NCBI RefSeq assembly: GCF_000003605.2
Contig: NW_003124896.1
Span: 505,500 to 534,777 of the forward strand
Direction of reading: 5' to 3'
Source of the DNA: Saccoglossus kowalevskii
Lineage: Eukaryota > Hemichordata > Enteropneusta > Harrimaniidae
DNA length: 29,278 nucleotides
The position numbers and the translations under genes are program-made. Under the pieces are notes generated by a model. It was not told the DNA's origin, ran no database searches, and saw only the letters and a list, made by a program, of their open reading frames with translations. Shown here piece after piece: positions 4,951 to 29,278 of this stretch (its first letter is position 1; the number at the start of each line of letters is the position of its first letter).

Positions 4951-5380
4951 CGGCGAAGATTTTTTTTCAAACGAGCAGTAGTCGTATCAGTTTGTTTTTA
5001 TATGTTAAAATTAATCGGAAATTTATAAGCGAAAATATTTTAAATCAAATATCAGTGCAAGAAGTTTGTTTATTTCAATAAGTCAAAGCCAGTAGCCCGT
5101 GGTTGAACATGAAAAGAACAAAACCTCAGAATAAATCTGCAAACTAAAACTACAGTACATGTGCTGTAAAAAAGAAAAAAACTTGATTTTCTTTAATAAT
5201 AAAAGTATTTAGATTGGTAAATGTTGCTGTTTAATTACATGCTCATTATTTTAATACTGAGAAAAGAGGGGTATGACATATTTTTTCATGTACTTGTTTC
5301 CTGTCTTGAATGAATATTTTTTTTTTCATTTATTGAAAACACGAATTATCTCATCAGCAGTTATTGTCCACCAAACTAAA

Positions 5381-5591
5381 TACTGTAAAATGACTAATTT
5401 TCGCTGGGTTTAAATTTCACTGATTTACCATTTCAGGCATATTCAGTGGGTTTTAAATTCACAGTTTTATCATTTAGATAATGTGTTCTAAGCACAATTT
5501 TACATATTCACTGGGTTTTAATTTAGCGCATTTTTCAGTCAGCGAAAAAAGCCAAATTAAAACCCAGTGAATAATTAACCCCTTTACAGTA
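5381..5591. mobile_element. Foldback MITE, TACTGTAAA family, copy A
   Basis: Begins TACTGTAAAA and ends TTTACAGTA in inverted orientation. The interior has inverted blocks built from TTCGCTGGGTTT and its complement, including AATTAAAACCCAGTGAAT near the right end. No coding capacity. Its termini match copies B and C (21453-21666, 26936-27067). Confidence 0.8.
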
Positions 5592-7058
5592 TCAACACTG
5601 GAATAACAGTATACGTATAGTTGCTCTCGTATGTCAGTGATCTATAAAACATATACTAGAATAATAGAATTATTTTAAAAAACGGGTATATCTAAACCCA
5701 ATGAGACATTATAAATAATAATATTATAAATGGCAAGAGGCAAGTTATGATAAAAATCTCATCGTCGTTACCACGCCCGCTTGTGGCGGCTTCCAACTGC
5801 GTCGTCCTCTTGGTTCACGGAAAAAAATATACTCTGGCTCACGAGAATTGAAAATATAACAAATAAAAAATCAGTCGTGGTTTCTGGTAATAAGAGTTTG
5901 AGAGTTAGGATGCAACATGGATAATGGCCCACTGATCTTTGTTATTTTGTCGATTTCTAAGGGGAACATGCATAAACAAAACTGGTATTCTCAATGTATT
6001 CTCAAAGTGCAACCATAAACCCTGGTCAACTGGAGGGTCTATGGTGCAACCTCTAGTTTTTAAATTAGCGAGCCTTTGTTGTAAAATAAGTACAGAAAAT
6101 AAATAAGTATGGAAAATAGTGAAATATTTAAAAAATACATTTAGATCAGGTACAATCTAATCAAACACTAACGCCTATATACCAGTGAAGTGATTATCTA
6201 CCTGCACCAGATTGCACCCGGCTACTATGGTTGATTGAATGTTTACTAATTGCCAGATAAAATAAACACTGATACAAGAATACCTAATACCGACCTTGAG
6301 TAAGTATCTTAAAACCGGAGGATGCAACATTTCGGCGTATACTAAATGGTTGTATTACCAGACACTATTATATCGCAAACATCAAAATAATAAATACAAA
6401 AATTACTAATATACTTAATTTGTAATTGTAATAATATCATTATCTGTATTGCAATCGAATCCACTTTGCGATATTGATGCGAATGAACAACTTATAAAGT
6501 TTAAAAACATGGAAATAACAAGAAACAAAATAAAAACATGTGATGTATATATTTAAAAAATATATGCTAGCCGCTGGTGATGATTTATAATCCATATTTT
6601 AATATACTGTCATTATGAGACGTTAAAATAATAGCTAATAATCAGCATTTTATTTTTGTTGAGTTCCGTATCAAAGAAATGGGCGAGCGTTATCGATGGT
6701 CATCACTAACAAAATAGCCGGCGATAATAAATGGTATAATGGTTGCCATGATTTGGCCCCATTCACTACACTGCCCACAGCCACCCAACCATCCCTGATG
6801 TCAAACGTGGTAACCTGGGGGTAGATAACCGTGATCACAATTTTTGTAAATCAACAAAATATTGTCCCAAAAAGTCAGATATGTAAAACGTGTTGTGGAG
6901 ATACATATAACACTATGATTGAACAGAATAAATGGTAAGCATTACGTTCTGGATAGATGTACATATGTACGTGACTCCCCTAAAAAAAAGGACGTATTGT
7001 GAATCTCCACTTCCTTAGGGAGCTCACAGAGTACTGTATTATTTCAAACTTCCGCAAG

Positions 7059-9227: not shown

Positions 9228-9494
9228 AACTAACAAGTTACTGACAGTAACTTAGAATCGCTATCACACACAAAGAAGATTCATACAAAATTTATTCTTG
9301 AATATCAAGGGTAGATAAATCTAAGGGCAGGTAACATTCCTGGAAATCACATTAAAATTATGTTTGATGTGATATGTTATGAGAATCACCTTCTTAATAA
9401 TCAAATTAGCAAACATTAAGTTAAATTGTATGATTTGTAATCTTACATTGGAATATTGTATCAGGATTGGGAGACAGAGCCTAAAATATAATTC

Positions 9495-9586
9495 AATAAA
9501 ATGTGTGTATCCTCTGTAACTATAAATGTACAACAGTTATCTCTAAGAAAGCTTAGTTTTAAAACTGATGTATTGTCTGTAATAAA
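9495..9586 (+). terminator. Polyadenylation signals of the TRIM gene
   Basis: Canonical AATAAA hexamers lie at 9495-9500 and 9581-9586, 270-360 bases after the stop. The second is followed by a GT-rich stretch (CTTGTGTACTTCT). Either could end the transcript. Confidence 0.6.
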
Positions 9587-10019
9587 AGATTATTCATACT
9601 TTCACGACAAACTTGTGTACTTCTATTTTCATGATGGAAAATGAGCTGAAAAGCAATATTTAGTTTCTAATTCACACAGAAGAGAGATGTTGGTGTCAAT
9701 TAATAAAACACATTGCCAATAATAATATCAAAATATATTTTCTTCTTGACATTAAATAAGTATAAATTATCAGAAAGTGAATTTTCCCCTTGTTCTGGTT
9801 CTCTTCAAAACATTTCTAAAAGGCATTTTGTCAATTATTTCCATTGCTTGACATGAACTGAATCAGGTGATTTATTAGTGATAAATCAGCAAGGAGTCGA
9901 CCGTTTTTGTTAACATATCTAAAACCTGTAACCCAATATGCATAATTCTCATATAAAATTTGAATGTACTTCTCATCTTCAAGACACTTAAGTATCAGAA
10001 TTTAGCAAATTTGAATACT

Positions 10020-10900
10020 GAAATGAACTACAAATGTTCATGAAACTGGTATAAAGACTAAGTTTGAATGAAATTGGTCAAGGCATGCCCCAGAAACTGT
10101 TAATGACATGTGCAAATGTTGATTTTTGGGACAATTAATGGCTGTCAGTTAAAGCTCAACAAAATAAAACAAAGCGATATTGACATGTATCTTGACTTGT
10201 ACCAACTTTAAAACAAAACATTGAACCCATTAACTTGCCCCAAATCTGTAAAATGAGCAGAACACTCGTAAAAAAACAAAATGGCCACTCGTCCTACATT
10301 TTGAATTGAATCACGAAAAAAAATTACGTGCATCAATATTTTGTATGAAATCGGTGAAGGCATGTCCAATAAACAGTTGATGAAATTTTTGAATTTTGTG
10401 ATTTTGTTTCTTAAGAAATGGCCGCCATAAGGCTAAATTTCGATAAAAACGAAAAATAACTGAAAACAACATTTAACCAATTATAACTTGCCTTTGTACA
10501 AAATTTAACCCAAATCTGTACAATCATCTCTGTAAAATGAGCAGAACACTCGTAATGAACAAAATGGCCACCAGTTCGCCATTTTTGAATCGAATCACGA
10601 AAAAAATGACGTACATCAGTAACCCACCATTACTGATGTCAATGCCAAGTTTGAATAAAATCGATCAAGGCATGTCGACATGTCCAAAGGTTGATTTTTT
10701 TTTTTTTGCAACAAAAATGGTCAATCAAAAGTCAACCAAATCAAAATTAAATCAATGTGCACATGTCTGCCATATTGACTCGTCTTTGAAGAAAATCTGT
10801 CTATGTGTCCCTGAGAAATGAAGACTGACAAACACACAGGCGGATGGACACAAAACATAAGTCCCCGTTTCTCACTACGTCCGACGGGGAATACTTGTAA
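10020..10900. repeat. Degenerate modular repeat, ~280-310 bp period
   Basis: The block TGAATGAAATTGGTCAAGGC recurs with changes near 10065, 10342 and 10652. The block TGTAAAATGAGCAGAACACT recurs near 10248 and 10532, each time followed by an AAAATGGCCAC segment and then GAATCACGAAAAAAA. A further AAATGGCCGCC lies near 10418. The right end carries a short inverted pair, GTCCCCGT and ACGGGGAA (10861-10895). It looks like an old dispersed repeat built of tandem modules and is not coding. Confidence 0.65.
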
Positions 10901-12006
10901 CAAATGAAACAAACTTGAGGTTTTCTAAAAAAAAGAAATTTAAGAAATTGGGATAGCCATTTTAATAAGAAGTCGAAAATATCACTCTTTACCAAAAATA
11001 TTCATTAAAATTAGAGAATTGAAGATATCTGCACGAAATGAACAAATCTGAGAGAAATCCACCGAAAGTACACATTATACCAAGTTTCAATTCAATTGGA
11101 CTTGCACTTTTCATTAAGAAGTTGACATGGACTAGCCACGCTTGACGAAGTAAAACAGTGGGGTTAAAAAATTGACATGGAGCACAACTAATTTATTTGT
11201 ATAAAAGGCTACATACTGGTACTTACTATTTAGATAATTGCCAAATTAGTACCATGCCAGGCTAATGAAATGGTGGTGACCATTGTGCAGTGCATATTTC
11301 AATTTCATGTAAACAAACTTTTTCCACACTTTGTGTATATGTTGCTATGAAACCTATATCAAACATGAGCCAAAGTGACAAGCATCATTTTTTAAAGTAA
11401 CTGGTCCTGCAATTGGGTTGTGCTTGGTCTTGCTCACTTCAATATATCATAGCTGATATAACCATGGCAACAGTAATGATACAAAGAAAACAAGAACATC
11501 CAACTTTGTCAGATTTTACTCATACAGCTGTAGTCTCTGCCATGGAGCATTGACAATAATAAAAACATTCAAAAATGATCATTTATTTGTAATGTGTTTA
11601 ATATTTATGACAAATCCAAAGATATCAACAAAAAAACAAGCAAAGAATCATACTTTCCCCAAGATTAATGGCCATGATTAAAATTCAATTCAACAAATAT
11701 TTTCTTGTTTCCATTTCAGATAAACAAAGTAATAGGATAATTCAACACTAGAGGGCAATATATACATTTTTTTTTAATTCAACAGAACATCACCTACTAT
11801 ATATATTATATGTGGCACATGATGTCCTTCCACCTGATATGTACATACATGTATCATGTAAAATTGTTACTGTACATAAATATTTCTAACAAACATTTAT
11901 GTTTTGTTAAGTACCGGGGTATCAATGTACAACACATAATTTATTGGTTATATTCATGTATAATGGTAAAATATTAATTATTACAATTTGTTTCCATTCT
12001 TCTTCA

Positions 12007-12024
12007 TTTATTTATTTATTTATT
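12007..12024 (-). terminator. Overlapping polyadenylation signals of SFI1
   Basis: On the minus strand a (AATA)n tract gives four overlapping AATAAA hexamers starting only 15 bases after the SFI1 stop codon, which implies a very short 3' UTR if used. Confidence 0.55.
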
Positions 12025-12038
12025 ATACTTTCAATACT

Positions 12039-12143
12039 TCACTGCAATTGAGCCACCAAAGAATTTGCTTTGTCGGCAAGTGACCTCACGTTGTCTTTAT
12101 TTTCCGCAATCTTACGAGATAATTCATTGATCTCCAGCTGCAT
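12039..12143 (-). CDS. SFI1: SFI1 exon E20 (last, stop codon)
   Basis: 34 codons plus TGA: MQLEINELSRKIAENKDNVR, then SLADKANSLVAQLQ, a coiled coil. The acceptor is a microsatellite, six ATT units running straight into CAG. Confidence 0.85.
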   Translation of the reverse strand: MQLEINELSRKIAENKDNVRSLADKANSLVAQLQ

Positions 12144-15100
12144 CTGAATAATAATAATAATAATTTTTAAGTGCAGATTTAAACTAGCTATCCCATAATG
12201 CATTGTTTCTGTTAAGGTCTCATGCCACTAATCAACCAATCAATCAATTTAAATGCCTTGCAAGAACCAATGACATTTTTAAAATATTTTTTTTCTCAGG
12301 TGCTCCCTGTTTGTGGGCGTAATCAACCTCGTCAAAGGTGAGACCAACATGTGGTCTTTTGTTTACTACTTAGCGGCTGTGTACCTGTGGGTTTATTCTG
12401 TGTGTATTTGGATGTTCTAATCTTGGTGTTTTTCCAGTGATTTCTCTAGGTGCAATCCAAATACAGTAGGTGTGTCTTGTTTACCTGAGATTTGTAAGAG
12501 TTTGAGCTGGCCAACATGTTAGTTTTTTTCATATGGTTGATTACTGGCATGTTAATTTCCCATTTTTGAGCCATGTTTTCAATTTTCTTCATCATTTTCA
12601 TATACATGTAGCAATCTCGTCATATGTTAACATTGTCGTCTATGGAAATTCAATTAGTGCTATGAGCCCTGATGTTATGCCTCTTTCACCTTGGATATGT
12701 CAGTATGCAGATTCAATTTAGCTATCCTACATAACACTGCACCCTACCATGTTGACTTCCTCTTTCACTTGGGATACATCAGTTTGCAAATTTAAACTCA
12801 TATTAACACCGGACAGTTGATCTTCCAGCCAATCAGAGAGCTGCTTCTTCTGTTTCTGCAAATCTCTGAACAAAAAATAAGCAAACAAAAAGTCATATTT
12901 AGAAAATAATTCTTTGAATACAGATATCCAATAAGAAATATTTTGTAACTTTTTAGTTTTTCTCTCCAAACACTATTAAAGTCTAAACCAAACACCAGTA
13001 CAGTGAAACCTGTTTAAGCCGAACACCAGAACAGTGAAACCTGTTTAAGCCGAACACCAGAACAGTGAAACCTGTTTAAGCCGAACACCAGAACCGTGAA
13101 ACCTGTTTAAGCTGAACACCAGTACAGTGAAACCTGTTTAAGCCAAACACCAGAACAGTGAAACCTGTTTAAGCCAAACACCAGTACAGTGAAACCTGTT
13201 TAAGCCGAACACCAGAACAGTGAAACCTGTTTAAGCCAAACACCAGAACCGTGAATCCTGTTTAAGCTGAACACCAGTACAGTGAAACCTGTTTAAGCCA
13301 AACACCAGAACAGTGAAACCTGTTTAAGCAAAAACACCATAACGGTGAAACCTGTTTAAGCCTAACACCAGAACAGTGAAATCTGTTTAAGCCGAACACC
13401 AGAACCGTGAAACCTGTTTAAGCTGAACACCAGTACAGTGAAATCTGTTTAAGCTGAACACCAGTACAGTGAAACCTGTTTAAGCCGAACACCAGAACAG
13501 TGAAACCTGTTTAAGCCAAACAGGAGTACAGTGAAACCTGTTTAAGCCAAACATGAGTACAGTGAAACCTGTTTAAGCTGAACACCAGAACAGTGAAACC
13601 TGTTTAAGCTGAACACGAGTACAGTGAAACCTGTTTAAGCCAAACACCAGAACAGTGAAACCTGTTTAAGCTGAACACCAGAACAGTGAAACCTGTTTAA
13701 GCCAAACACCAGAACAGTGAAACCTGTTTAAGCTGAACACCAGAACAGTGAAACCTGTTTAAGCTGAACACGAGTACAGTGAAACCTGTTTAAGCTGAAC
13801 ACGAGTACAGTGAAACCTGTTTAAGTTGAACACGAGTACAGTGAAACCTGTTTAAGCCAAACACCAGAACAGTGAAACCTGTTTACGCTGAATACCAGAA
13901 CAGTGAAACCTGTTTAAGCCGAACACGAGTACAGTGAAACCTGTTTAAGCCAAACACGAGTACAGTGAAACCTGTTTAAGCTGAACATTAGCACATAAAA
14001 ACCTCTCTAAGGCAAATGCCAATCTATCAAAACTCTGAATTAAAATGGTTTATTTACTTTATTTTTTCAGTGTTGTTCTTGTGTTCCTCTAACTGTACTT
14101 TGATGTCCATTATCTCTTTTAGAATGCTCTCTCTGCTTCTAATCATCTCCTTTGAAATTTCCGGAACTTGTCTGAGTGGCTGATGGATGTCTGTATCATG
14201 TTGTAAAGGGATAGTGAAAGCTGATGGTGGAAGCAAAATGGGCTTCTCCTTTGGACTAGCGGACATCTTCTTGTTTGCATCAGTCACTCTTTTTGGTGGT
14301 GTTATATTGATAGCAGTGATTGGAATTATGGGATATTGTGTTTCCATGGCACCTGTACTCGGCGTTTCTGTTAATACTGCAGGCTGAATTTTATCATGTA
14401 CATTCACAATAACCTGTGGTTCTTCAGATGGAATTGTTTCTACATCATCTCTGAAGCTGTCAACCTTTGGAGGAATCTCCAATCTTTGTGGTGACGATGC
14501 ATCATTTATCGTTGAAACGTCATTCTCCATCGCATCCGACGTCTCACTGCCCGATACTGAGCTGATATCATGATACAATTTTCCCATGGTGCTAGTAAAT
14601 GGTTTTGGTTCAAATCTAGGATGGCTTTCATCGCTAAACTTTGGTTGTCTGTGATCAATTTTAATTTCCCCAGTTTGTAAATCCACATGGGCACCAGCAT
14701 TACCACTGCAAAAAAAATAATGAAATAATTAAATTACCATAGTGATAGATTTGAATTTAATATGCTATAACCATCAATACCAGGTCTATCCTATAAGGTC
14801 CATTCAATTAGCAATAGCAATTGTCAGCTTCATCATAGTCTTATTAAAATCCAATGTATGAATCCGAATCCGAATCCGAATGTAAAGGCTCCAGTTGTGT
14901 TCATATCTTTCAAAATCAGCAACCAATCAGAATTCATGTTACAGACTACTTGCTAGTAAGGGACTCAGTGGAAGGCTGTCTGAATGAATGCAATTTGCAT
15001 ATAATCTGTTCTTATTCTGGTTGAAAAGGAATAAAATCTTCACCCACAGAGATGATTACCAACATTGTCTACACTGTATGTAAACATACTCCAACATGGG

Positions 15101-18100
15101 CTTAGAAAGCAATGGCTGAATGAAAAAACTTTGGTTGGCAATCTTACCAATCAGACTGCTACATTACTTCTACACTCGTTATTAATATGAAAAATGAATG
15201 TAATTTAATCCAGCAACACAACTGTGAATGTGAACGTTACTCACTCATCAAAACTGATATCCCCAACAAGCCCTTCTTTTTGTAAAGACTCCAAAAGAAA
15301 GTCTGGTTTTCTTGGTTTAGGTCTACTTTTAAGATTTGTAGTCATAACCCTGTAACAGAATTATAATAGACTAAAATTAGGACAATTTGGGTCATTTTTA
15401 AGTAAATGAGTGAATGCAGAGAAAAACGAGTGCAACTATAATCAATGATGTACATATTATTAGTTGACATACTTCTGAGCAATATGCACGGCATGTGGCA
15501 GTTGCTGCACGGCAGGTGGCGGTTGCCGAACTGAAGATCTGATTGGTGATTCTGACGTCATGATTGTTGGTATATAATCAGCCACCTTTCTCCGTGGTAA
15601 CAGTATTCCTTTGCGTTCTCCACCTCTTTGTTGCTGTCTTTGCTTTGTCCATTCTTTCCAGTGATTTGCGCAACGATACACGACTTGCATTGTACTGTAC
15701 GCAATCTATCAATAAGGGACAAGAACATATGAAACATGTTGCGAAACAAAACCATACAAACAATATACAAGAGAAACAGATTTTAAGTTTGGTGACAATA
15801 AGCTTGCTTCATTAAACATCTTTCAAAAAGCGTAAAATGTTCCAATGACTAAATTATTAACATTAAATTTGTTTAATTAATGCTTTGTATGAGAACGCAG
15901 CGATGAAAATACAAGAATGATCATCAGTAGATGTTAATTTTGCTATTATTAATCGCAACCATACCGGCCATTCAAACTTTTTTGAAATGTATAAACGCAG
16001 GTCTGGGTTACCAAAAATAATAAATTAACAGACAAAATGGAAAAAGTAAAATGAGAATGCTAAACTTACCTTGGCTTGTTCTGATGCGGCATACGTTGCT
16101 CTATTTGCCGATATATCAGTGGCTACCTTTAACCACTGTGACACACCCTTTCTTAGGAATCTCTGCCTTCGTTGATCCATTGCTTGGGAAATACGCTCCG
16201 CTTTACGCTTCTTTTCCAATGTATACGAAAACCATGCTAGTAGACATCTACGTTCTACAGAATACGCCCATTGCCAGAGTGCCATGGTGTTCTTTGTGTT
16301 GGTTTCTTGGGCTTCATGATACTATCAACAAAAATATACCCATGAACACAAATGAAAACCACTGTTCTGCCAGTGAAGACAGTGCAATAATGCAACCACA
16401 TGAAAATTAGATTAAGAATCAGGAAAAAAAGAATTTAAAAATTTGTGATGTAATAAAATTTGACAACAGAGAAATGCCGTTTATGATTTTTTGAATAGTT
16501 ACCTGCTGTCGCCACTTTATGAAAAAAGTCGCAGTAATCCTAGTGTTATGTAACCACATACACTGTTTACGCAGCAACTGGAATGATATCAAGAAAATCA
16601 AAAGGATGTTATATTCCAAAAATGTGAAATATGGAAGCATTTTAAAGCTGATATTGGATCGCATTGCAAAAATGAGTAAATATACAGCTTTTCAGAAGTT
16701 TAAATGTGGAAATAAAAAAAGACAATGAACTGAAGTGTCAAAAATATAAAAATGCAAAATCTTTGAACAAGCAAACTTCTTTTTATCAATAATTATTATC
16801 GGTATACGAAAAAATTAAACTGAGAGTTATTCACATACATGTTTCCTGATAGCATATTTCCTATACAACATCCATGCTGTGAAGGATTTCTGACAGAGTT
16901 TATTATCCCAGTGTCTGTCAGCTCTTTCTTGTAATTCCCTGTTCCTTATAGAAGTCTTGTGAGTGTTTATCCAGGCATAGAACACTCTCTTGACTTTCAC
17001 TGCAAGCATGAAATGTACATTATTAGTTGTTAGGGGTTGACCATTAGAATTTCTGGGAGGGGAATGCTAGACAAAAATTGTATAGAATAAAATTTACCAT
17101 CACTCACATTTGTTTTTTTTTGTTTTTTTAAATTGATCCTTCTAGTTTTTAATGGCCCACCTCTTAGTGAAATAATTGAGGTTTAATGTTAAGAATACAT
17201 ATCTTATACAGACATAAACAGAAACAATAAAATATACAATGTACAAACTTGTATATGTATAATCTCTAATAAACATGCTAATAAAGTGATTTGAAAAACA
17301 GCTGTTTTTGTGATAGTCATATGCTGATTTTTTGCTGTTTAATTTCAGAATAGCCATACTTTTGTAGAAAATTAATAAATGTATTTTTATTCACATGACA
17401 AACAAGTAAGAGTGTCATCACAATTTACAAGAAATCTGACTCGACTATTTCTCTCAGTTTTAGAAATGGCAGAAAAAAAACAGTCAAACTGAATTTTACC
17501 TTTGTCTAGAGTTTCCCTTGCCTCTGTAACTTCTTGCTGTTTAGAGTGTTTGTTGCAGATATGTGACATGGTGTAATTACGCCATGCAGAGAATACCTAG
17601 AAGAACGGAACATTTATAGGTTATCACAATTCATATCTAACATTTTTCTAAACCATAGGAAAGCTGTAATTCATCATTTTGTTCAATTTGGTGCTGTTCG
17701 TGTGACTTTTGAACTTCTGGAGGTTGACAGATTTGTCAAACAGATTCTTGAATGTGAAATGTGTTTTGTTTTGCAAGAATGGATTGGAAAAATTAAGGGA
17801 AAAAAATAATCAGTCGCAATACAAGCAGGTTTATATTCTTAGCTCTATGAAATATGGCAGAAATTACATTTTTAATGTATAAACCACACAGTTTGCTTTA
17901 AACATGAGAACATATTGAATTAGAAAACTAGAAAATAAATTGTTGCATGCCTAACCTTTGCTTTGTGGGAGATCTGCCAGTGATTGGTTGCTTTGTTTTC
18001 TGAGGCTTTATCTTCTATCTGAACTTTGACATTTTCATACCACTGCCACAATGCCCACCTGAAATCAACATGATTGTACAGTGAAACTAACAACAAATAT

Positions 18101-21100
18101 TACAAGTGATGATGAAGTTTCAACCTTTCAACAACATGGCAACAACATCATTCAAGCTAAGAAAAAGATTTTTTCTATAATTCTAACTGCCATGTCTGAG
18201 GAAACGTTACTATAATAACACTATAATTGTTCTTGACACATGCCTGTAGTTATGTTTAAGTTCAAGTTTTGTTGAAATCATTACTGATATGAGGTACTTA
18301 GAAAAACAACGGTGAACATAATTTAATGAATATGACACCTACATCAAGAGGTGTTTATAAATTATAAATTTATTTATAAAGATTTGTGTAAGATATGTAT
18401 GGATGGCACTATTAAAAGTGGATATCGTTCTAAATGCCCACACACAACTTGACCATTGCTTACATCAATAAAGCCAAGCATAACAATATAACCATTGAAT
18501 AAATATGAATGTCATATGCTTGTATCTTGTATACAGGAGTTTGAGTCTTGCAGAATGAGAGAGTTCAAATAGGTAGCGATGAATCTTACCTTGACAGTTG
18601 CATATTATAGTTTTCCAGCTTCTGTTCTACAACCTGTTTCGTATTTGTACACTGTTTTGTATAAAACTGCAAATACAAGAAAATAAGTAACAAATAAGTA
18701 GATGATATTATAGTTACATTACAAAAGATTTATCAGTATTTTGGACTTATATCCAAGTACTATAGAGTATTTCCAAGTCACAGTGTTATGAGTTGGGGTT
18801 TAAATGATAATTCAAAGGTGATGAAGTAATTAACAATTTCTCCAAATTACAAGAATGGCTTATTGCGTAAACCACATTTGTGACATCACAACTACATGTA
18901 TTGTCCCTAGTGGTGTTTAGTTGATATAATTACTTCTGCTGCAGTGGTGGTTCTGCAAGAAGCACCAGCGGATTCTGCGAAAAGCACCAGGTGATTGTGC
19001 AAAAAGCACCAGGCAATTCTGCGATAACTACCAGGCAATTCTGCGAGAACCACCAGACAATTCTGTGAGAAGCACCAGACAATTCTGTGAGAAGCACCAG
19101 ACAATTCTGTGAGAAGCACCAGACAATTCTGTGAGAAGCACCAGACAATTCTGGGAGAACCACCAGGCAATTCTGTGAGAAGTACCATGCAGGCAATTCT
19201 GCAAGAACCACTAGGCCATTCCGTGAGAAGCACCAGACAATTCTGTGAGAAGCACCAGACAATTCTGTGAGAACCACTAAGGCCATTCTGTGAGAAGCAC
19301 CAGACAATTCTGTGAGAAGCACCAGACAATTCTGTGAGAAGCACCAGACAATTCTGTGAGAAGCACCAGACAATTCTGTGAGAACCACTAAGGCCATTCT
19401 GTGGGAAGTACCAGGCCATTCCGTGAGAAGCACCAGACAATTCTGTGAGAAGCACCAGACAATTCTGTGAGAACCACTAAGGCCATTCTGTGAGAAGCAC
19501 CAGAAAATTCTGTGAGAAGCACCAGAAAATTCTGTGAGAAGCACCAGACAATTCTGTAAGAAGCACCAGACAATTCTATGAGAAGCACCAGACAATTCTG
19601 GAAGAAGCACCAGACAATTCTGTGAGAAGCACCAGACAATTCTATGAGAAGCACCAGACAATTCTATGAGAAGCACCAGACAATTCTGGGAGAAGCACCA
19701 GACAATTCTCTGAGAAGAACCAGACAATTCTGTGAGAACCACTAAGGCCATTCTGTGAGTAGCACCAGACAATTCTGTGTGAAGCACCAGACAATTCTGT
19801 GAGAAGCACCAGACATTTCTGTGAGAAGCACTAAGGCCATTCTGTGAGAAGCACTAAGGCCATTCTGTGAGAAGCACCAGACAATTCTGGGAGAAGCACC
19901 AGACAATTCTGTGAGAAGCACCAGACAATTCTGTGAGAAGCACCAGACATTTCTGTGAGAAGCACCAGACATTTCTGTGAGAAGCACCAGACAATTCTGT
20001 GAGAAGCACCAGACATTTCTGTGAGAAGCACCAGACAATTCTGTGAGAAGCACCAGACAATTCTGTGAGAAGCACCAGACAATTCTGTGAGAAGCACCAG
20101 ACAATTCTGTGAGAACCACTAAGGCCATTCTGTGAGTAGCACCAGACAATTCTGTGAGAAGCACCAGACAATTCTGGGAGAAGCACCAGACAATTCTGTG
20201 AGAAGCACCAGACAATTCTGTGAGAAGCACCAGACAATTCTGTGAGAAGCACCAGACAATTCTGTGAGAAGCACCAGACAATTCTGGGAGAAGCACCAGA
20301 CAATTCTGTGAGAAGCACCAGACAATTCTGGGAGAAGCACCAGACAATTCTGTGAGAAGCACCAGACAATTCAGCGAGAAGCGCCAGACAATTCTGTGAG
20401 AAGTACCAGACAATTCTGGGAGAAGCACCAGACAATTCTGTGAGAAGCACCAGACAATTCTGGGAGAAGCACCAGACAATTTTGTGAGAAGCACCAGACA
20501 ATTCTGGGAGAAGCACTTAGGCCATTCTGATAGAACATCACTTAAACAACCGTTGTTTATCCATGGAGGTTCTAGAAAATATACACACTATCATTGTTCA
20601 GGTGCTTCCATAATGAATGTTAGAGTGCAACTTCCTACCAATTTTAAAACTTGATGCAAGACCTGCAAAACAAACCCTGATTCTTGGATACACCAAAGTC
20701 TTGGAGTCGTCAGTTACTCTACTGATATAGTTAAGCAGGTGATTTGTTAGGGTATGCAACATGGAGTTGGCGATTACCTACCACTTACACTGGTTGGTGA
20801 CACATGTCAAACTCTAATTTTACACATATTACAAATAATAACTGCTTACCTTCCATGCTGTAAGAACCCTCATCAACAGTTTCTGATTATTGTGATTATT
20901 AGCAGTCAGTACTTTCAAGTATTTCTGTTTACGATACGCCACATACTGTTCGATAAACATAGATCAAGTTAGACAGTGATCAACAAATACAAATATATAA
21001 ATACATTGTTTACTTTCAAAACCAAATTTCAAAAACTCCTTGATCATAAATGGACATGTTTTAATAATAGAAATCTAGTTTAAAATTGAAAACGAAATAT

Positions 21101-24100
21101 ATGAATTTTAATATATTCCAAACATACCTGTTGCCATGCCAACCAGCATCTCGACACCTTCTTAACATAGTCATGTTTGACGGCACACTTCTCATGATCG
21201 TAGCTATTATATTGATACAATAATATAAGTATTACTGACATGGAAGTAATGCTAGAAGGGTTTCAACTTTAGTTGGATTGCACTGTCGTTAGTCATTCAG
21301 AATATAGAAAGATTTGTGAATGACAGACAAGTACACAGCCAAACAACAGTTATGCTATGAAACTGTCTTCCTGTACCAATCTAAGTAAGAGCAGTGATTT
21401 AACACTAGTATAAGGACATAGACTTTCTTTGTAAATATAAAGCTCTTTCAGGATACTGTAAAATACTTTATTTTCGCTTGGAATTAATTTTCACTATTTT
21501 CGCTGAAGGAATGATTCAGTGAAAATAAAATCCAGCGAATATAACTTTTTCCCTATATTTTACATTCAACTTGTCAAAAATCAGTGAAAATAAATTCCAT
21601 ACAAAACAACCAAAATGTCTTTTCAGTGATAATTAATTCTAGCTAAAATAAAGTATTTTACAGTATATGTTATTGGCAGCATGTTACAGAAAAGTTGACA
21701 ATAACTCGCAGGGTTTTATTTTATGTTGATTTTGTCAAGTGATGTACAAGCTGATTCCAAACCTTATGATTTATGAAATCATGAGAAGCATAGAAGTTAT
21801 CGCTATAGTAACAATACTACCTGAATAATATGTACAAATAGAGAAATTTGAATTTGGTAAAGATCATAAGAATAAATAAGACACCCCATTAGAGCAGCTT
21901 AAGAAGTAAATGATGATGTAAAGTTGGTGTGTCAGGTTAGAACACAACTTTAATTTGAGATGCATATCTAAGTAATTGAGCAATGTAATATTATTCAGGA
22001 TGAGGATTCTACCTTTTCTTGAGTTCTTTATTATACAGAATCCAGTCTTTTAATGATTTCATACAAAGATGTTTTTGATAATGATGTTGTGCAATTTCCT
22101 GAAACATCAAAATATCATTATTATTATTATTATATTACTTGTGAGATGTTTCAAATAAAAACAGTCTGACATGGAGACATTAGATCTCCAGTTTCCTCTC
22201 CAATCTCACGTAATGTTACTGGAGGTTTAGTAAGAGTAATTTATTAATAAAGATGAGTTGGATTTACAATTTGGTCTTGAGACGATTTGAAATTCTGTCT
22301 TGTGACAAGTTACAATTCGGCCTTGCAACGATTCAAGATTATCTCTAAAACAGAGTAGTTTATAATTGTAAAACACACAAAAACTGACAAAAAATTCAAA
22401 ATTTTAAGTAAAACAACTTGTCTCACTCACTATGGGTAAAATGTTTCATAAGAGCGATTTTCAAATTCAAATGGAATACAATCATAGCAGTTTATTTTCT
22501 CAATATTGATTAGGTCTTTGTCTAACATTCAATGTGAACAGGTCACATGAGGAGTGGTATAACTGCTATATGACGAATCCAGATTCGATCTAAACACTGG
22601 GGGCGTATCGAAGTAATACAATTATTATACATGTAGTTTTCATAATACTGATGAGCAAAACACACCTCTTGTTTCATTTCATGAAGCTTTTCATTTGTTC
22701 TTTCTTTCCACTTCATAAACTTTCTCTTCAGTAATTCACTGTCATAGTGCAAGATAGCCTGGAAAGAAGTTAGATAAATTTGTTGAAACTATAATTGATG
22801 TTATCTTCACAGCGAGCGCAAGATATTTACATACACCTAACTCCCGCACCCGGTAGGTAATTACCAAGGGACTTTGCAACATCGCCAGACACTTCCCTAG
22901 ACACTCCAATGACCATTGTGGACGCAATGAAGTTAGATACCCACTCACTTGACAGTTAATCAAAACACCGGACGCAGAATGCCTTTGATCATGTGATGTT
23001 TGGCCACGAGGAACGAGAGGTAGTTGGACTATTCCATTGCTTTGTACAAACAAAAATCATTGCTGTGTAACACTTGAGAGAAATATAATACGAACATAAA
23101 ACTGGGAATGAATATTAACAAGAAATGATAAATATAAATTCTTTTGATTTGTAGTTTGTTGAGATGTTGTCAATGGATTTATAGTAATAATATTAGCGTT
23201 GTGAGTGTCCCTTTCAATTTCTCGCATAATGGCTGGTCCCATTGCCAGTTTACCAGAACACTCATCGCCCAGTCAATCTTTCCCTGGAATCTTCTACTTT
23301 GTTTCACCTACACACCGTCACCATATACCAGTTTCAAATATCCTTCAGATCGCAGACAAAATTCGAAAAACTTAACAATTTCTTATGTAACATTCAGTCA
23401 ACGACCGCCGCTCACTGACTCCTTTCAAAACTTATCCAACCACCGTCCCTCAACACCGGTGTTGAGGAACGGTGATCCAACCGATGCGACAGAAATGCGG
23501 TACAATCCTTTGAACCGTTGCAGTCGCTAGTCCAACTTCCTTCGCCGTCGTTCATTCGCGAGAGGCGAATAATCTCCATCTCAGTGTCTTTGTCTAAACG
23601 TTTTGACATAATCAAAATCAGAAACTGTATTCAAAACTAAACTTTATTCAAAACGAGGAAAATTTAGGTAATTTCATTATATGTTAGGGGCGTTTTTAAA
23701 TATTTGTATCAACTAGGTTTATTATTTTCGTGAAACGTTCAAAATAGAATGTATTAAATGAACGAGCATATGTATGTATGAAATAATAAAGTGTCCGATA
23801 TCAACAATGAGTAGAACATGATTGTTTGATGAATGTTTGTTGACCATCTGAAGCCCTGGTCCGTTGTTATGATAAATTGTCATGTAGGCGTGTATGTAAA
23901 TTTATTGCGTCTACAACGGTCGTTGGAGCGTTTAGCAAAGTGTCTGGAGATGTTGCAAAGTCCCTCGGTAATTACCTGCCGGGTGCGAGAGTTAGGTGTA
24001 TGCAAATATCTTGCGCTCGCTGTAACAGTGTTGGCATTAGTAGTTTGCTCTATTGGTACATCTGTGGTTATGTATTTAAATGGCAGAGGTACGTCTCTGG

Positions 24101-27100
24101 TCAAAATATTTGACAAGCCAGCACACAATAAATGTAGTTAATTGCATTTATGATATAGACACATGATTTTTGAAGAGTTAAATGTAAAATACAGAGAAAA
24201 AGGTATATTAGCTGGATTTTATTTTCACTGAACTTCCCTTCAGCGAAAATTATTCCCAGCAAATTGGACAGTAACGTATTATGGTATCACCAGCTATGAA
24301 ATTATTCTACTGAACAATACACTAATGAGGTATTTCAGCTGAAACACATATCAGTATTATATTAGTTGCCAAAATTATTTCAAAAATGGTTACATGAATT
24401 GTAGGTAATTTTATGTGAACTCGCTGTATTACTGCTGTATCATTCTGTAATCCTAACTAGTGTGGTACCGGATTCTGTCGTAAATTCGCCCAGGGCCGTT
24501 AAACGGCAGTTTGGGTTTAAAATAAAATAAAATTGGACCAAGAAACTGCCCATGGCGATTGGTGTTATTTTAATCTTTTCTGAGACCTAAAATCTTCGCG
24601 TAGTCATTGACGCATATTCAAGAGTATTGATGTTTATTGCGACTAGCGTGAATGGGTTAGCTTCGTTTCTACAATGAGCTGTTATCGCTGTAAATAATGT
24701 TAAATTATTCTTCAAATGCTCAGTTTATTTTTTGAAAACAACTAATTTTTTTATTTAAAAACAAATTATGCCGCTTTCCCATCAAAATTCAAGCCAAAAG
24801 ATCAGACAACAACATCGGCAAATCTCTTCCGTACTGAGATCAATAACATTAACATATTTAAATGTGCTATGGTACCGGTAATTTGAACACGTTGGCATTA
24901 TCCATCGATTTTATTGGTTAATTATCGATTTGACCTGTCAGGTCAAAGAACACAGTCTCAGGTCAAACATGGTGGATAGTCATTTCTACAGCATCAAGTG
25001 CTGAGAATGCGATCAGAATCATTCGCTTACAACGAAATAATTTGAAATTTATTTGCATTTTATAACAATTCAACGAATTTATTTTTTGCATGTTATTATA
25101 ATCATTACTAGGTAATAATCAACAATTGTAAAACGCAGCATGACCGGATTGCGCTACCACGATCATTTGCTACTAAGCAATGCAGTTGTGTTCGTTGTTA
25201 TTTGAAACTTCTTTTAGAATATACTTTCGTTAGTAATAAAATGAAACAAAATAATTGTATTTGGTGCACAAGATTTGTTAATGTGATTTTTTGGGAGAAA
25301 GATGCACGGTCTACTTTTTAATCCAGCAAGAACAAAATTTAATAAATTCAACTTGAATAGCGTCTTTCGTTTTGGGTGGTCCAAATGCCACGTTCACAAT
25401 CGGCGTAGGTGGATTTTTCAATGAAAATATAGCCCCCTACAAATATTTTATGACAATTTTTTGAAAATTTTAACCCCAAATAAGGGCCCACCATCCGTGA
25501 AACTGCCCAGGGCGATTTTTCGGATGGGCAAATTTACGGCAGAATGTGGTAGTTACCCAACCAACCATAGAAATACTCACCATTCTTTCTATCATTCTGT
25601 AATCCTGACTAGTGTGGTAGTTACCCAACCAACCATAGAAATACTTTGCATGAAGAATGGACCTATAAGACAAAGCAAAGAAAAGGTAGCTTAGGTGCAC
25701 TCTTACAAGGATACAGTAGATCATATTATAAGGTTATATCAAGAATACTGAAAAGTATCTACAAAGGATATAGAACAAGTGTATACTATGTGGCATTTTC
25801 ATGGTATCTTTATTATTACCGTATTTGCTCACCAACTGTTACACATCGCTAATGGAGACAAACATAAACTAAAAATTGAATTTACTGTACACTGTATCAT
25901 AAAAATATGATTTATTTTAACTTTAGACATACGTCTTATGTAAGTACATGTGTTACTACCAGTAATAGAGCAAATAAATATCAAAATCCAGAAAAAAACA
26001 TTTCATGAGATTCATGCCTCTGCGATCGTTTTCGTTCAGTGACGGTAATCTATTTCAATCATGTACTACATTGTTACGACATCTGTTGTAAACTCAGAAA
26101 AAGTGACACACATTTTTCAAACAAGACATCTGTAATGTGAAATTTTCAAAGATGGCTTAATTCTATTATTTTCACTCTGGATTATGGTTGATACCGTAAA
26201 ATCTGTATTAGAAGTCACATTCGTAATAAAAGTCGCACCCATTTTTATTGAACAATTGTATACCAAAAATTCATCATTTCTCATATGTGTAGATGCTCTA
26301 ATAGAAGCCGCATGTCCTGTTGCATTGTACCATTTCTAAAACAGATTTTACAGTAGTTTGAATGTTTAGATGGGTTGTACTTGTAAGATTGATACCTTCT
26401 ATACTTGATGGCTTTCTCATCTTGTTCGTGTTCTTCTTTCATTAGCTGAACATACACTCTCCAGTTGAAGATACACCTTGGTAAGGTTTTACCAATGTAA
26501 TGAGAATCGGCAATGCTGTACTGTGTCTGAAAATAAATTGCATATTCATGTATCACATGTAATAATAAGAATAATAATCTTTATTGCATAATCGTATTCT
26601 TATTTGGATATTGACTCAGAAAAAGAAAATTACAATAAAGATGAAAAACTGAGGAAGTAACAAAATGTATATGTACAATGAAAAACACAAAACATGCATA
26701 TATCTCAGTTTAAATGGTGATGGATTACACTGATTGTGAGCTGAGCATAGAGAATGGTTCACCATATTATTTGTATGTATTGATAGAATGTTTACAATAA
26801 AACCAATTCCATACCTGTCTATGTCTTCTCCATCGCACATATTGCCACCATTGTTGTATGCAACCTTGCAGAATTTTGGACCTGAAGATGAATTGTGCAT
26901 ATTGATTAAGAGATACTCATGATTGCAAATTTGAGTACTGTAAAATACTTCATTTTCGCTGCAGGAATGATTCAGTCAGAAATCAGAGAAAATAAATTCC
27001 ATATGAAACACCCAAAAATTATTTTCAGCGAAAATTAATTCCAGCTAAAATAAAGTATTTCACAGTATATATTAAAGTGAGGTCAAAAACCATTTACTTA

Positions 27101-28708
27101 TAATGTATCAAATTATATCATTCAATTGCAATACGTAAACAAATGGTCACCAATATCTCGTTGAGAGTGAAAGAGCCACAATACTTGTTTACGCCCTTGA
27201 AATAGTGTTTGATTCTAATCATTCTGTCTACTGATCCAATTACCATGGTTACATAGATCAGGAGAACAGTGGGCGTGATGACGACATAACACTATTTAAG
27301 GAGAAAAATCAGTCACATGACTCCCTCACTCTAAACAAGATCTCTGCATTGGATTGCGTTCAAGATCTCTGCACTGTGTAATCAATGTATTTTATGCCCA
27401 TGTTGAACAAGACATGTTGCGATGACTGTGACACTTATCATAAACTCATATGTTTGTCACCTGTAGTAATTCCTGGCTTTCCGAGACTGTGGTACTAATC
27501 TTAATTCCTCGTTATGTTCACATCTGCTCAGCCAAACATTCCACGCTCTTCTTTGTTGCTAAAAAAAATCATGCATTGAAAAAAATAATTTAAAAAAAAT
27601 GAACACGCTTGGAATGACCTGAAAAAATACCATATTAAGGGCAGTTGCATGCTGAAAGTGGGTTAAGTTAAACTATTGTAAAACATGTTGAAAAAGTGAC
27701 ATGCAATTTTAGCAAATTGCATAAAATGATGTAATAGTGAAATGTTGATTTAGCGAATCTCTCTTGTAATTGTTGATTTCCTGTTTTCACAATACTTGTC
27801 TGTCGCATGCCAAAACAAATGCACAGTTTATCACCTTCATAAAAAAAAAGAAAAACTGTAATTACGAAGCACCCCAGATTTTTATATTCCGGATTACTGT
27901 ATACAAATCCCCAAGCCTTGGCCATTTTGAATTTATAATAAAGTCATTAGCGACATCTTGAATTGGCGAATCAGACATGCTTGCGAAAAAGACATTTTTC
28001 CTATTAGTAATTCTTGCGCTAATATGAAAACACTAAACACAAGTTTGGTACATTTCTAATGCAAGAATAATTTCACTTACATGCACAACTTTGATGATGA
28101 GGTAAAATAATGACTAGAAAGGTAGACTAAAGTTTTCCAAATAGTAAAGGTGTCAGTAATATATTTCTACACATCTCTTTGCATGATAACATAAAGGTAT
28201 TGCTTAGATACCACGATTGAATGATTTGACGCCATTCAGTTGGATATTTTTTTCACAGTGTCAATCAGGCTCTTGCATTTTAAGAAGTTTGGGTCTTGAA
28301 ATTGTGTGTCCTCAGAAAACCCATGTTCAAAACCTGGATTTTTATAAATTGCTAAATTCTATTGTTAACACTGGCAGATGTAAAATAATGGATCAGATAT
28401 TCTTAGTTATTAATGCTCAATAAATGGTAAGGTACATACCAGTTTGTGATTCAACTGCAGTGAAATAGCTTTCCTCATTGCTTTCAACTTTCTCTGAATC
28501 TTGAAAAGCTGGATTGCTGTGAAACACATTTTCTGAAAATACAGAAATATGCAGAATTAAATACACTTCAAAGCCAAATATCAGACCAAATATCAGAGCG
28601 GTAATGCAACACAATTTCTCAGCTAAATGTTTCTTACCAATAAACGTTTTCTGCAATGATTGTCAGCCATTTCATGTTTTTCTCTTTTTTCTTTGCATAA
28701 TTCAACAT
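12039..28708 (-). CDS. SFI1: SFI1, centrin-binding centriole protein, 20 exons seen, 5' end off the right edge
   Basis: Twenty exons, about 927 codons, joined in frame except across intron 5, where one exon is missing. The body is a string of Sfi1 repeats of the pattern A-x7-LL-x3-(F/L)-x2-W-(K/R). Clear examples are AILHYDSELLKRKFMKWK, ANNHNNQKLLMRVLTAWK, ADRHWDNKLCQKSFTAWM, ATNHWQISHKAKVFSAWR and ARNYYRSKILQGCIQQW. Each such helix binds one centrin. Sfi1 forms filaments at the yeast half-bridge and sits at vertebrate centrioles. After exon 16 the protein turns Pro/Ser/Thr-rich and disordered, then ends in a coiled coil closing at NSLVAQLQ. Many introns fall inside repeats rather than between them. 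CCDC191 and other Sfi1-repeat proteins are the alternative, but the long repeat run followed by a disordered tail and C-terminal coiled coil favours SFI1. Introns 27559-28439, 17001-17499, 17597-17955, 18059-18589 and 15706-16069 show nothing notable. Confidence 0.88.
12145..12163. repeat. (AAT)n microsatellite at a splice acceptor
   Basis: Six trinucleotide units on the plus strand. On the transcript strand they form the ATT tract directly in front of the E20 acceptor CAG. Confidence 0.85.
12748..12865 (-). CDS. SFI1: SFI1 exon E19 (coiled coil)
   Basis: 118 nt, phase 2 to 0. It encodes DLQKQKKQLSDWLEDQLSGV and a VKEEVNM end. Acceptor TTGTTCAG, donor GTAGGG. Confidence 0.83.
12988..14025. 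repeat. 31-bp tandem array, ~32 copies
   Basis: The unit contains CAGTGAAACCTGTTTAAGC followed by a variable YGAACACCAG or CAAACACCAG part, with a 31-bp period. It fills most of the 1.2-kb SFI1 intron between E18 and E19. Copies vary at a few fixed positions (CCAGAACAG, CCAGTACAG, CGAGTACAG, CCAGAACCG). The last copies near 13985-14025 are degenerate (AAAACCTCTCTAAGGC). Confidence 0.95.
14058..14705 (-). CDS. SFI1: SFI1 exon E18 (large, disordered tail)
   Basis: 648 nt, phase 2 to 2. It encodes a Ser/Pro/Thr/acidic tail (KIDHRQPKFSDESHPRF near the start) and then the start of a coiled coil (ESILKEIMDIKVQLEEHK). Acceptor T8GCAG. The donor AAA|GTAAAT lies just before an in-frame TAA, so retention of the next intron would end the protein here. 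Confidence 0.85.
14859..14882. repeat. (GAATCC)n microsatellite
   Basis: About four perfect hexanucleotide units in the SFI1 intron between E17 and E18. Confidence 0.85.
15245..15349 (-). CDS. SFI1: SFI1 exon E17
   Basis: 105 nt, phase 2 to 2. It encodes SRPKPRKPDFLLESLQKEGL then GDISFD, a short conserved-looking basic motif in the linker. Donor GTGAGT. Confidence 0.84.
15473..15705 (-). CDS. SFI1: SFI1 exon E16
   Basis: 233 nt, phase 0 to 2. It carries the last Trp motif (VVYRCANHWKEWT), then moves into a basic and Pro/Gln-rich linker (RQPPPAVQQLPHAV). Donor GTATGT. Confidence 0.84.
16070..16321 (-). CDS. SFI1: SFI1 exon E15
   Basis: 84 codons, phase 0 at both ends. It contains ALWQWAYSVERRCLLAWFSY and AMDQRRQRFLRKGVSQWLK, two repeats. 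The acceptor is TTTTTGTTGATAG, so the exon starts 12 codons before the first internal methionine. Donor AAG|GTAAGT. Confidence 0.86.
16503..16577 (-). CDS. SFI1: SFI1 exon E14
   Basis: 25 codons, phase 0 at both ends: LLRKQCMWLHNT followed by ATFFIKWRQQ. Acceptor ATTCCAG, donor CAG|GTAACT. Confidence 0.8.
16839..16999 (-). CDS. SFI1: SFI1 exon E13
   Basis: 161 nt, phase 1 to 0. It contains KVKRVFYAWINTHKTS and ADRHWDNKLCQKSFTAWM, the end of one repeat and one full repeat. Donor GTATGT after a histidine codon. Confidence 0.86.
17500..17596 (-). CDS. SFI1: SFI1 exon E12
   Basis: 97 nt, phase 0 to 1, starting VFSAWRNYTMSHICNKHSKQ and ending at AREtLDK, which begins the next repeat. Acceptor CTTCTAG, donor GTAAAA. 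Confidence 0.83.
17956..18058 (-). CDS. SFI1: SFI1 exon E11
   Basis: 103 nt, phase 2 to 0, starting WALWQWYENVKV and ending ATNHWQISHKAK, the first part of a repeat completed by VFSAWR in E12. Donor GTTAGG. Confidence 0.84.
18590..18666 (-). CDS. SFI1: SFI1 exon E10
   Basis: 77 nt, phase 0 to 2. It encodes FYTKQCTNTK and then VEQKLENYNMQLS, continuing into RWALWQW in E11. Acceptor TATTTGCAG, donor GTAAGA. Confidence 0.8.
18945..20535. repeat. 22-bp tandem array, ~70 copies
   Basis: The unit core is ACAATTCTGTGAGAAGCACC with a 22-bp period. It is nearly perfect from about 19047 to 20515 and degenerate at the left end. A second unit type (CCACTAAGGCCATTCTGTG) is interspersed near 19281, 19392, 19481, 19746, 19837, 19858, 20123 and 20519. 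The array occupies ~73% of the SFI1 intron between E9 and E10. The long open frames on its minus strand are a by-product of the unit lacking stops. Confidence 0.96.
20850..20945 (-). CDS. SFI1: SFI1 exon E9
   Basis: 32 codons, phase 0 at both ends, ending ANNHNNQKLLMRVLTAWK, an exact consensus repeat. Donor GTAAGC. The next intron holds the 22-bp satellite. Confidence 0.84.
21128..21203 (-). CDS. SFI1: SFI1 exon E8
   Basis: 76 nt, phase 2 to 0. It contains CAVKHDYVKKVSRCWLAWQQ, one repeat with Trp in the Phe position. The acceptor has a poor pyrimidine tract (ATATAATAG). Confidence 0.8.
21453..21666. mobile_element. Foldback MITE, TACTGTAAA family, copy B
   Basis: The left arm has TACTGTAAAATACTTTATTT, then TCGCTTGGAATTAATTTTC. 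The right arm is the inverted match ending AAAGTATTTTACAGTA. Inside, GGAATGATTCAG is shared with copy C. It lies in an SFI1 intron (E7-E8). No coding capacity. Confidence 0.88.
22013..22098 (-). CDS. SFI1: SFI1 exon E7
   Basis: 86 nt, phase 0 to 2, starting EIAQHHYQKHLCMKSLKDWI, one complete repeat. Acceptor GTTTCAG, donor GTAGAA. Confidence 0.83.
22666..22758 (-). CDS. SFI1: SFI1 exon E6
   Basis: 31 codons, phase 0 at both ends, beginning AILHYDSELLKRKFMKWKER, a textbook Sfi1 repeat. Acceptor CTTTCCAG. In-frame joining to E5 is impossible (phase 2 to 0). Confidence 0.85.
22810..24022. mobile_element. DNA transposon relic with ~165-bp terminal inverted repeats
   Basis: The left end starts CAGCGAGCGCAAGATATTTA and the right end is its inverse, ending in CTTGCGCTCGCTG. 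The arms (about 22810-22975 and 23860-24022) match over ~165 bp at roughly 85%. The right end is followed by TA and the left preceded by CA, consistent with a decayed TA target duplication. Total length is 1.2 kb. A 20-base perfect palindrome (23448-23467) and a transposase helix-turn-helix relic lie inside. It sits in SFI1 intron 5. Confidence 0.83.
23475..23610 (-). pseudogene. Frameshifted transposase helix-turn-helix relic
   Basis: The minus strand reads MSKRLDKDTEMEIIRLSRMN. In a second frame it then reads AKEVGLATATVQRIVPHF, which together have the look of the N-terminal helix-turn-helix of Tc1/mariner or IS630-type transposases. A one-base shift separates the two parts and stops follow soon after. 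No catalytic domain is left. The family assignment is inference. Confidence 0.55.
24183..24290. mobile_element. Degenerate copy D of the TACTGTAAA foldback family
   Basis: Has TGTAAAATAC at the left, then GCTGGATTTTATTTTCACTG and an inverted CAGCGAAAATTATTCCCAGC. The right terminus (ACAGTAACGTATT) is decayed. Confidence 0.55.
24472..25545. mobile_element. ~1.07-kb element with short inverted termini inserted in a 68-bp repeat
   Basis: The left end ATTCTGTCGTAAATTCGCCC is inverted at the right end (GGGCAAATTTACGGCAGAAT). Both junctions carry TGTGGTA just outside, a likely target duplication. A subterminal motif AAACTGCCCAKGGCGATT occurs in direct orientation near both ends (24543, 25500). No open frame of note, so it is non-autonomous. 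Confidence 0.68.
25546..25645. repeat. 68-bp tandem duplication
   Basis: GTGGTAGTTACCCAACCAAC starts at 25546 and again at 25614. The end of the same unit (TATCATTCTGTAATCCTRAC) also stands at 24438, left of the 1.07-kb element, so the array was split by that insertion. Confidence 0.85.
26192..26355. mobile_element. 164-bp MITE with TACYGTAAAATCTG termini
   Basis: The left end is TACCGTAAAATCTGTATTAG and the right end, inverted, is TACTGTAAAATCTGTTTTAG. The arms are ~21 bp. It lies 41 bp from SFI1 exon E5, inside intron 5. The first nine bases resemble the TACTGTAAA family, but the interior is different. Confidence 0.8.
26396..26526 (-). CDS. SFI1: SFI1 exon E5
   Basis: 131 nt, phase 0 to 2. 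It contains CIFNWRVYVQLMKEEHEQDE and ends at KAIKYR plus two bases (AG), i.e. the first half of a repeat with nothing to complete it. Donor GTATCA. Confidence 0.82.
26815..26881 (-). CDS. SFI1: SFI1 exon E4
   Basis: 67 nt, phase 2 to 0. It encodes SKILQGCIQQWWQYVRWRRH, the second half of the repeat that starts at the end of E3. It is the model for the exon missing from intron 5. Confidence 0.85.
26936..27067. mobile_element. Foldback MITE, TACTGTAAA family, copy C (internally shortened)
   Basis: Ends TACTGTAAAATACTTCATTT and the inverse AAAGTATTTCACAGTA. It shares GGAATGATTCAG with copy B but is ~80 bp shorter. It lies in the SFI1 intron between E3 and E4. Confidence 0.85.
27461..27558 (-). 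CDS. SFI1: SFI1 exon E3
   Basis: 98 nt, phase 0 to 2. It starts QQRRAWNVWLSRCEHNEELR and ends at ARNYY plus a split arginine. Acceptor T8AG, donor GTGACA. Confidence 0.82.
28440..28532 (-). CDS. SFI1: SFI1 exon E2
   Basis: 31 codons, phase 0 at both ends, starting KMCFTAIQLFKIQRKLKAMR. It completes the repeat begun in E1. Acceptor ATTTTCAG, donor GTATGT. Confidence 0.82.
28638..28708 (-). CDS. SFI1: SFI1 exon E1 (first seen in window)
   Basis: 71 nt, phase 1 to phase 0, ending HEMADNHCRKRLL. It opens the repeat ADNHCRKRLL-KMC-F. The donor GTAAGA is good. The acceptor (a CTTAAC branch point, then GTAAG) is weak, so the left limit of the exon in the transcript is less sure. Confidence 0.65.
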
Positions 28709-29278
28709 CTTACTCAGGTTAAGAACTTTCATGTGATACAGTATGACAAGAGAAAACAAAATCTAAATGTTTCCATGGAAACCACAGACACTAACCATTA
28801 GGTATTTCTATGATGACTAACGTAAACAATTTTTACCAATCACGAGTTACAAGTTGATGCCTAGAATCAACTAACTAATCTCACTTAGAAGCTACCAATT
28901 TATACCAGCCACAATCAATGCCAACATATCACTGATTCCAAAGACAATGTACCAACCTAAGTTAATTTAAGCAAACATAGCATTGATAACAACTATACTC
29001 TACCAATCTAAGCCAACAAATCATTGGTACCAACTACAATCTTACCAATTGAAGCTACACTGCAACAAACAATTAAGGTGGCTCATTACAGTTTCACAAA
29101 AGTCTGTTGATTGTTTTTTTTATATTTTGCACATAGATTGCTTATTGCCATACAACGTGAATACAAAATTAGAATATGGACCTATTATTTTTCTCATAAA
29201 AAGGATTTTACTGTATGTGAATTTCAGAATTAATATGCTGGGATACTTTGAAGAAAAGGAAACATGATCCATTCATTA
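28709..29278. other. 5' side of the SFI1 gene, no exon recognised
   Basis: Upstream SFI1 sequence, taken to be intron. Between about 28880 and 29065 the phrase TACCAAYCTAAG or TACCAATTTA recurs every ~50 bp (28893, 28950, 29001, 29042), a weak, decayed minisatellite. Nothing else is supportable. Confidence 0.4.

Follow-up and report, generated by a model that had tools for sequence, protein, structure and literature searches.

The stretch of Saccoglossus kowalevskii DNA analyzed here, 29,278 nucleotides of contig NW_003124896.1 referred to below as the window, carries an SFI1-like gene on the minus strand (12039..28532), one intron of which is largely filled by a minisatellite with a 22-bp unit. 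The exons of this gene were placed by hand from open frames and sequence, giving a model of 21 exons in which 19 GT-AG junctions join exons 2–21 into a single open frame of 931 aa that closes with a stop codon; these are modelled junctions. The model supplies 20 acceptors, counting that of exon 2, and omits an exon-like frame at 12446–12619 that lacks a clear acceptor. A loose tryptophan motif matches the 931-aa model 19 times, with 8 of the 18 spacings exactly 33 residues long. Conserved tryptophans about 33 residues apart are characteristic of SFI1-type repeats, and many exons of the gene are approximately one such repeat in length. We take this spacing to be the SFI1 pattern and named the gene from the periodicity. 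A Pfam search of the 931-aa model returned no SFI1 family match and a PDB search with 531 aa of the model returned no match, so the name SFI1-like rests on the tryptophan-repeat pattern.

Other genes and repeats are visible elsewhere in the window. Downstream of the SFI1-like gene and on the opposite strand, an uninterrupted frame at 6984–9227 (+) combines RING, B-box, filamin and NHL-repeat matches, as in proteins of the TRIM-NHL type, and an exon-like frame at 653–970 (-) matches WDR54 with an E-value of 2.9e-15. A 101-bp repeat occupies 2939–3415 (4.7 copies, 96%), and 41 nt of the same repeat stand apart at 2623–2663 as a partial copy. Scans of the window for Rfam families and for tRNAs gave 0 and 0 matches. 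The features on which the analysis turns are the following:

28708–28638, minus strand: exon 1 of the SFI1-like gene, possible but uncertain
20850..20945, minus strand: exon 10, upstream of the array, ending in phase 0 with the donor AAG/gtaagc (called E9 in an earlier sequence-only reading of this DNA)
18667..20849, minus strand: intron 10 of the spliced model, the host intron, GT-AG, 2183 nt
20517..20535, minus strand: degenerate first copy of the repeat at the donor-side edge of the array, outside the 77 AGs counted below
18951..20516: 22-bp minisatellite of ~71 units, minus-strand unit TTGTCTGGTGCTTCTCACAGAA, from Tandem Repeats Finder, unit parse and pattern count
18712..18720, minus strand: highest-scoring donor-like GT in the stretch from the array to exon 11, AAT/GTAACT at site 18717, score 5.9
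18590..18666, minus strand: exon 11, downstream of the array (E10 of the same reading), acceptor TTATTTTCTTGTATTTGCAG
12984..13987, minus strand: second minisatellite, in intron 19 of the SFI1-like gene, 31 bp x 32, its unit including AACAG in the transcript orientation

The 22-bp array is an intronic minisatellite in the plain sense of the term, being built of head-to-tail units within the 10–100 bp range and lying wholly inside a GT-AG intron, 72% of which it occupies. Tandem Repeats Finder reports 18951–20516 with a period of 22, 70.7 copies and 89% matches, and degenerate edge copies stretch the array to about 18945 and 20535. The unit consensus, allowing up to three mismatches, is found at 56 places in the window, all inside the array, and at none in 100 shuffles, which bears out the sequence-only reading of about 70 tandem units in an SFI1 intron. 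That reading also placed the array correctly between donor and acceptor, with distances that needed slight revision: the donor lies 333 nt from the array (320 had been given), and exon 11 starts at 18666, 285 nt past the other end (about 280 had been given). No higher-order repeat was detected within the array, where identity is 0.88–0.90 at lags of 1–14 units and 0.88 for random pairs. The exact unit pattern has 0 matches in viral and prokaryote contigs, as expected for animal DNA, and the first 20 letters of the unit (plus strand) occur in none of the 5.39 million published papers searched.

Parsing yields 71 units, of which one partial unit was left aside. On the minus strand, the transcript strand, 65 of the remaining 70 carry an AG at the expected place and 64 carry YAG; between 18951 and 20516 there are 77 AGs, including 46 CACAG and 9 CCCAG, and 79 when the edge copies are added (18940–20540). 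The description of each unit as a pyrimidine-rich stretch that runs into CACAG or CCCAG is thereby confirmed. These seventy sites are one unit amplified and do not amount to seventy independent coincidences.

Two further properties of the array were considered and set aside. Long open frames cross it on the minus strand (307 and 281 aa, for example), and they follow from a 22-bp unit that contains no stops, so that a coding array was rejected. Pfam matches in these frames are scattered and weak and were taken as an effect of the repetition; the Meleagrin match reaches 25.2 bits against a cut-off of 25 for the whole frame only, and no single stretch passes. The second property is RNA structure: 198 nt of the array, folded as the transcript strand, are less stable than shuffled versions (z +1.83), of which 196 of 200 match or exceed them in stability, and a structure that hides or displays the AGs was rejected since the array RNA folds no better than shuffled sequence.

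Whether the repeated AGs resemble real acceptors depends on the standard applied. By a human-type acceptor matrix, which is approximate and whose human consensus may mislead for an AT-rich invertebrate gene, the 77 array AGs have a median of 7.1 and the 20 modelled acceptors one of 6.6; the array median stands at the 98th percentile of background intronic AGs, of which just 7 in 461 score as high. With the same matrix 51 of the 77 array AGs score at least the true-site median and 64 reach the true lower quartile. Across intron 10 the true acceptor of exon 11 scores 8.1 and ranks third, being exceeded by two of the 106 other AGs, one in the flank (20662, 9.2) and one in the array (19709, 8.6), and 44 of the 79 AGs of the extended array lie no more than 1 bit below it. 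By this standard the unit is mildly unusual: as good a score is obtained by 2.2% of random intronic 22-mers made tandem and by 4.8% of shuffles of the unit.

A matrix built from the 20 modelled acceptors of the gene itself, which are U-rich, was run at 12 settings that combine width and pseudocount. It separates true sites (leave-one-out) from background with an AUC of 0.86–0.90 and places the array median between the 42nd and 83rd percentile of background AGs over the 12 settings. The median score is 0.9 for array AGs and 6.0 for true sites (leave-one-out). At the default setting the true lower quartile is reached by 4 of 77 array AGs and the true median by none, while across all settings 1–13 of the 77 reach the former and 0–12 the latter. 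When 22-mers drawn at random from introns are arranged in tandem, 16–48% of them equal or surpass the unit (5000 draws, 12 settings; 44% in one of them). The unit is thus unusual only by a borrowed human-type consensus, and then mildly. The claim that the units are good-looking acceptors holds by the approximate human-type matrix, which scores them high, and fails by the gene's own matrix, which scores them low.

The two matrices disagree because U content differs. Thymine makes up 55% of the sequence before true AGs and 41% before array AGs, and the mean longest T run is 3.75 at true sites, 2.7 at background AGs and 2.1 in the array. Overall pyrimidine content is about equal (70% at true sites, 69% in the array), and array AGs do not fall short of true sites in the mean length of the longest pyrimidine run (6.0 against 5.6).

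The ranking within intron 10 was also obtained with the gene's own matrix, the exon 11 acceptor being left out of training. The acceptor scores 10.7, the best of the intron, and none of the 106 other AGs reaches that value; the array-region median is 1.0. The best other AG belongs to the degenerate edge copy, where ATCAG at 20527–20531 (scored at 20526) is the top AG of the array region with 8.8, above the true-site median. A narrower version of the model gives 8.7 for the true acceptor, 8.0 for the edge copy and 0.3 for the array-region median. The own-gene model is a rough one, as intron 2 shows: of its 38 other AGs, 32 equal or exceed the true site with the wide version and 16 do so with the narrow one. 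Two branch-like CTTAT words lie 17 and 28 nt upstream of the exon 11 acceptor.

These scores bear directly on a role for the array as a set of decoy acceptors, whose units would bind U2AF or the branch-site complex, compete with the true site, slow the removal of intron 10 and lower the amount of full-length mRNA. The YAG present in nearly all units (64/70) and the human-type scores, with 44 of 79 AGs no more than 1 bit below the true acceptor and one array AG above it, speak for such competition; the poor fit to the gene's own acceptors, with their longer T runs (3.75 against 2.1), and the first rank of the true acceptor by the own-gene matrix speak against it. The array also contains 52 branch-site-like yTnAy words, 47 of them CTCAC, and 40 of the 52 sit 25 nt upstream of the next usable AG (more than 8 nt on), a spacing that would suit splicing and that counts in favor of decoys.

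Conservation among the copies offers a further view of the same question. The AG columns of the units are 96% conserved, a level that a random pair of columns matches or exceeds in 42% of permutations (P = 0.42); six unit columns never vary, and the CAG triplet takes 9th place among 22. When the eight signal columns (tract plus YAG) are taken jointly, the permutation P is 0.13, so neither measure reveals excess conservation of splice signals across copies. That the AG is not conserved in excess is another point against decoys. The pyrimidine-tract columns contain purines in 5 of 420 cells and the remaining pyrimidine columns in 23 of 490, a scarcity in the tract that hints at a possible constraint among copies that are not independent. 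Taken with the acceptor scores, the decoy role appears unlikely. The more specific proposal that a typical unit forms a compact cassette of branch site and acceptor (CTCAC, 25 nt, YAG), so that the array would slow the removal of one intron of a centrosome gene to a degree set by its length, is improbable. Were it correct, the array would be the acceptor-side counterpart of the human donor minisatellites in 6-16 and ABCA7, and its length would provide a natural dial for splicing speed.

An array acceptor could yield a new exon if a suitable donor followed it. The 132 GT contexts in the array, most commonly CTG/GTGCTT (52) and ATT/GTCTGG (49), are weak as donors, the best scoring 4.1, where the lower quartile of modelled donors is 6.3 and their range 1.0–11.3. 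Downstream of the array, the AAT/GTAACT at 18717 (5.9) could serve in this capacity, and array acceptors might on rare occasions be joined to it as pseudoexons, or extend exon 11, producing poison exons with early stops and degraded transcripts. Any of the 79 array AGs does lead to a stop in either outcome, and in the human ABCA7 gene, according to the passages matched in PMC5954066, one VNTR unit is retained through a cryptic donor. The stops, however, come from the flank, which holds 5 to 8 per frame in 274 nt, and so they do not speak for poison exons; the array acceptors are moreover weak by the own-gene matrix. We regard poison exons as doubtful, with a small probability. The own-gene matrix scores the array AGs low and the donors are weak as well, so that the consequences proposed in the sequence-only reading, namely U2AF titration, slower splicing and variable exons, rest on the borrowed consensus.

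A different origin would make the array part of a mobile element inserted in the intron, for example a Helentron-like carrier of tandem repeats. Satellite-like repeats of oyster are carried by Helentrons, as described in the matched part of PMC7492417, and other introns of the SFI1-like gene hold dispersed and inverted repeats. Against this, the window has no copy of the unit outside the array, the intron flanks match each other and the rest of the window no better than shuffles, and no element ends are seen at the flanks of the array; the exact scans of viral and prokaryote contigs, with 0 matches, gave what an animal sequence would be expected to give. An inserted element is accordingly very improbable.

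The explanation we favor, with a probability of roughly 0.8, is a minisatellite of the ordinary intronic kind that is most likely inert and spliced out whole. A sequence of about 22 bp whose sense strand by chance combined a CAG with a run rich in pyrimidines would have been amplified to about 70 copies, presumably through replication slippage or unequal exchange. The array would then be transcribed with the gene and probably removed cleanly by splicing between the donor at 20849 and the U-rich acceptor that precedes 18666. Compared with the acceptors of the gene's own introns its AGs are weak, good donors to pair with them are lacking, and selection has left no clear mark on them; the presence of a second, different minisatellite in another intron of the same gene supports the ordinary explanation. 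Several observations count against it: the own-gene matrix is built on only 20 modelled acceptors and the human-type matrix rates the units high, the pyrimidine runs of the array are no shorter than those of true sites, the edge copy scores 8.8, the CTCAC words are regularly spaced, and purines are few in the tract. If the array is indeed ordinary, it carries a caution, namely that whatever signal a unit contains by chance is multiplied when the unit is repeated in tandem, so that a count of look-alikes is no evidence, and that a consensus of human type may be misleading in an AT-rich invertebrate gene.

Human minisatellites that supply a splice signal many times over provide the closest parallels. 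The 6-16 gene is also called G1P3/IFI6. Its minisatellite provides multiple splice donor sites, to judge from the title of Turri, Cuin and Porter 1995 (cited in PMC2572611 and PMC2915984); the likeness lies in the repetition of the signal, and the difference is that the 6-16 signal is a donor and is used, whereas the 22-bp array offers an acceptor-like signal predicted from sequence. The VNTR in intron 18 of ABCA7 has a 25-bp unit that starts with a splice donor, and the matched passages of PMC5954066 describe that retention of one unit occurs and is unchanged with VNTR length, while length tracks the skipping of exon 19. Like the 22-bp array it is an intronic VNTR with a splice signal in each unit; unlike it, as far as those passages go, it acts on the donor side, touches an exon boundary, is human and comes with expression data.

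Two other intronic minisatellites have been tied to splicing. A VNTR in intron 6 of hTERT (block 6, 38-nt repeat) is required for splicing choice in minigenes, according to the matched part of a review (PMC8150890), which does not describe it as a splice-site array. CeRep25B, a 24-base minisatellite in C. elegans introns, is enriched in genes with several splicing decisions (PMC4039745); it shares with the 22-bp array its intronic position in an invertebrate and differs, in the passages matched, in being near-palindromic, present at many loci and linked to splicing by correlation only. In the parts of these sources considered here, the published minisatellites with a splice signal in each unit (6-16 and ABCA7) are donor-side. 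No small-unit minisatellite of tandem acceptors appears among the matches listed by literature searches, though one may nevertheless have been published. Those matches include a paper on the internal repeat 1 of EBV (PMC5834210). That viral repeat has much larger units, which carry spliced exons.

The second minisatellite of the gene, with its 31-bp unit, has a higher AG median than the 22-bp array on the own-gene matrix in 11 of the 12 settings, all but the one that pairs the narrowest width with the largest pseudocount. The two arrays share a TCTGGTG(C)TTC word (P = 0.064 against shuffles), and a common origin is not claimed. As a post hoc observation, the acceptors of the two minisatellite-bearing introns, 10 and 19 (before 18666 and 12865), rank 1st and 3rd of 20 on the wide own-gene matrix and 6th and 3rd of 20 on the narrow one. 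Intron length and acceptor score are not significantly tied in the SFI1-like gene (Spearman 0.24 and 0.06).

The search for dispersed and inverted repeats was confined to 1–12900 and 20500–29278. Within these segments, intron 6 of the SFI1-like gene contains an inverted pair of 165 nt (22809–22973 and 23859–24023, 85%), and introns 8 and 3 share a dispersed pair of 100 nt (21573–21672 and 26975–27074, 87%); both pairs are perhaps short mobile elements.
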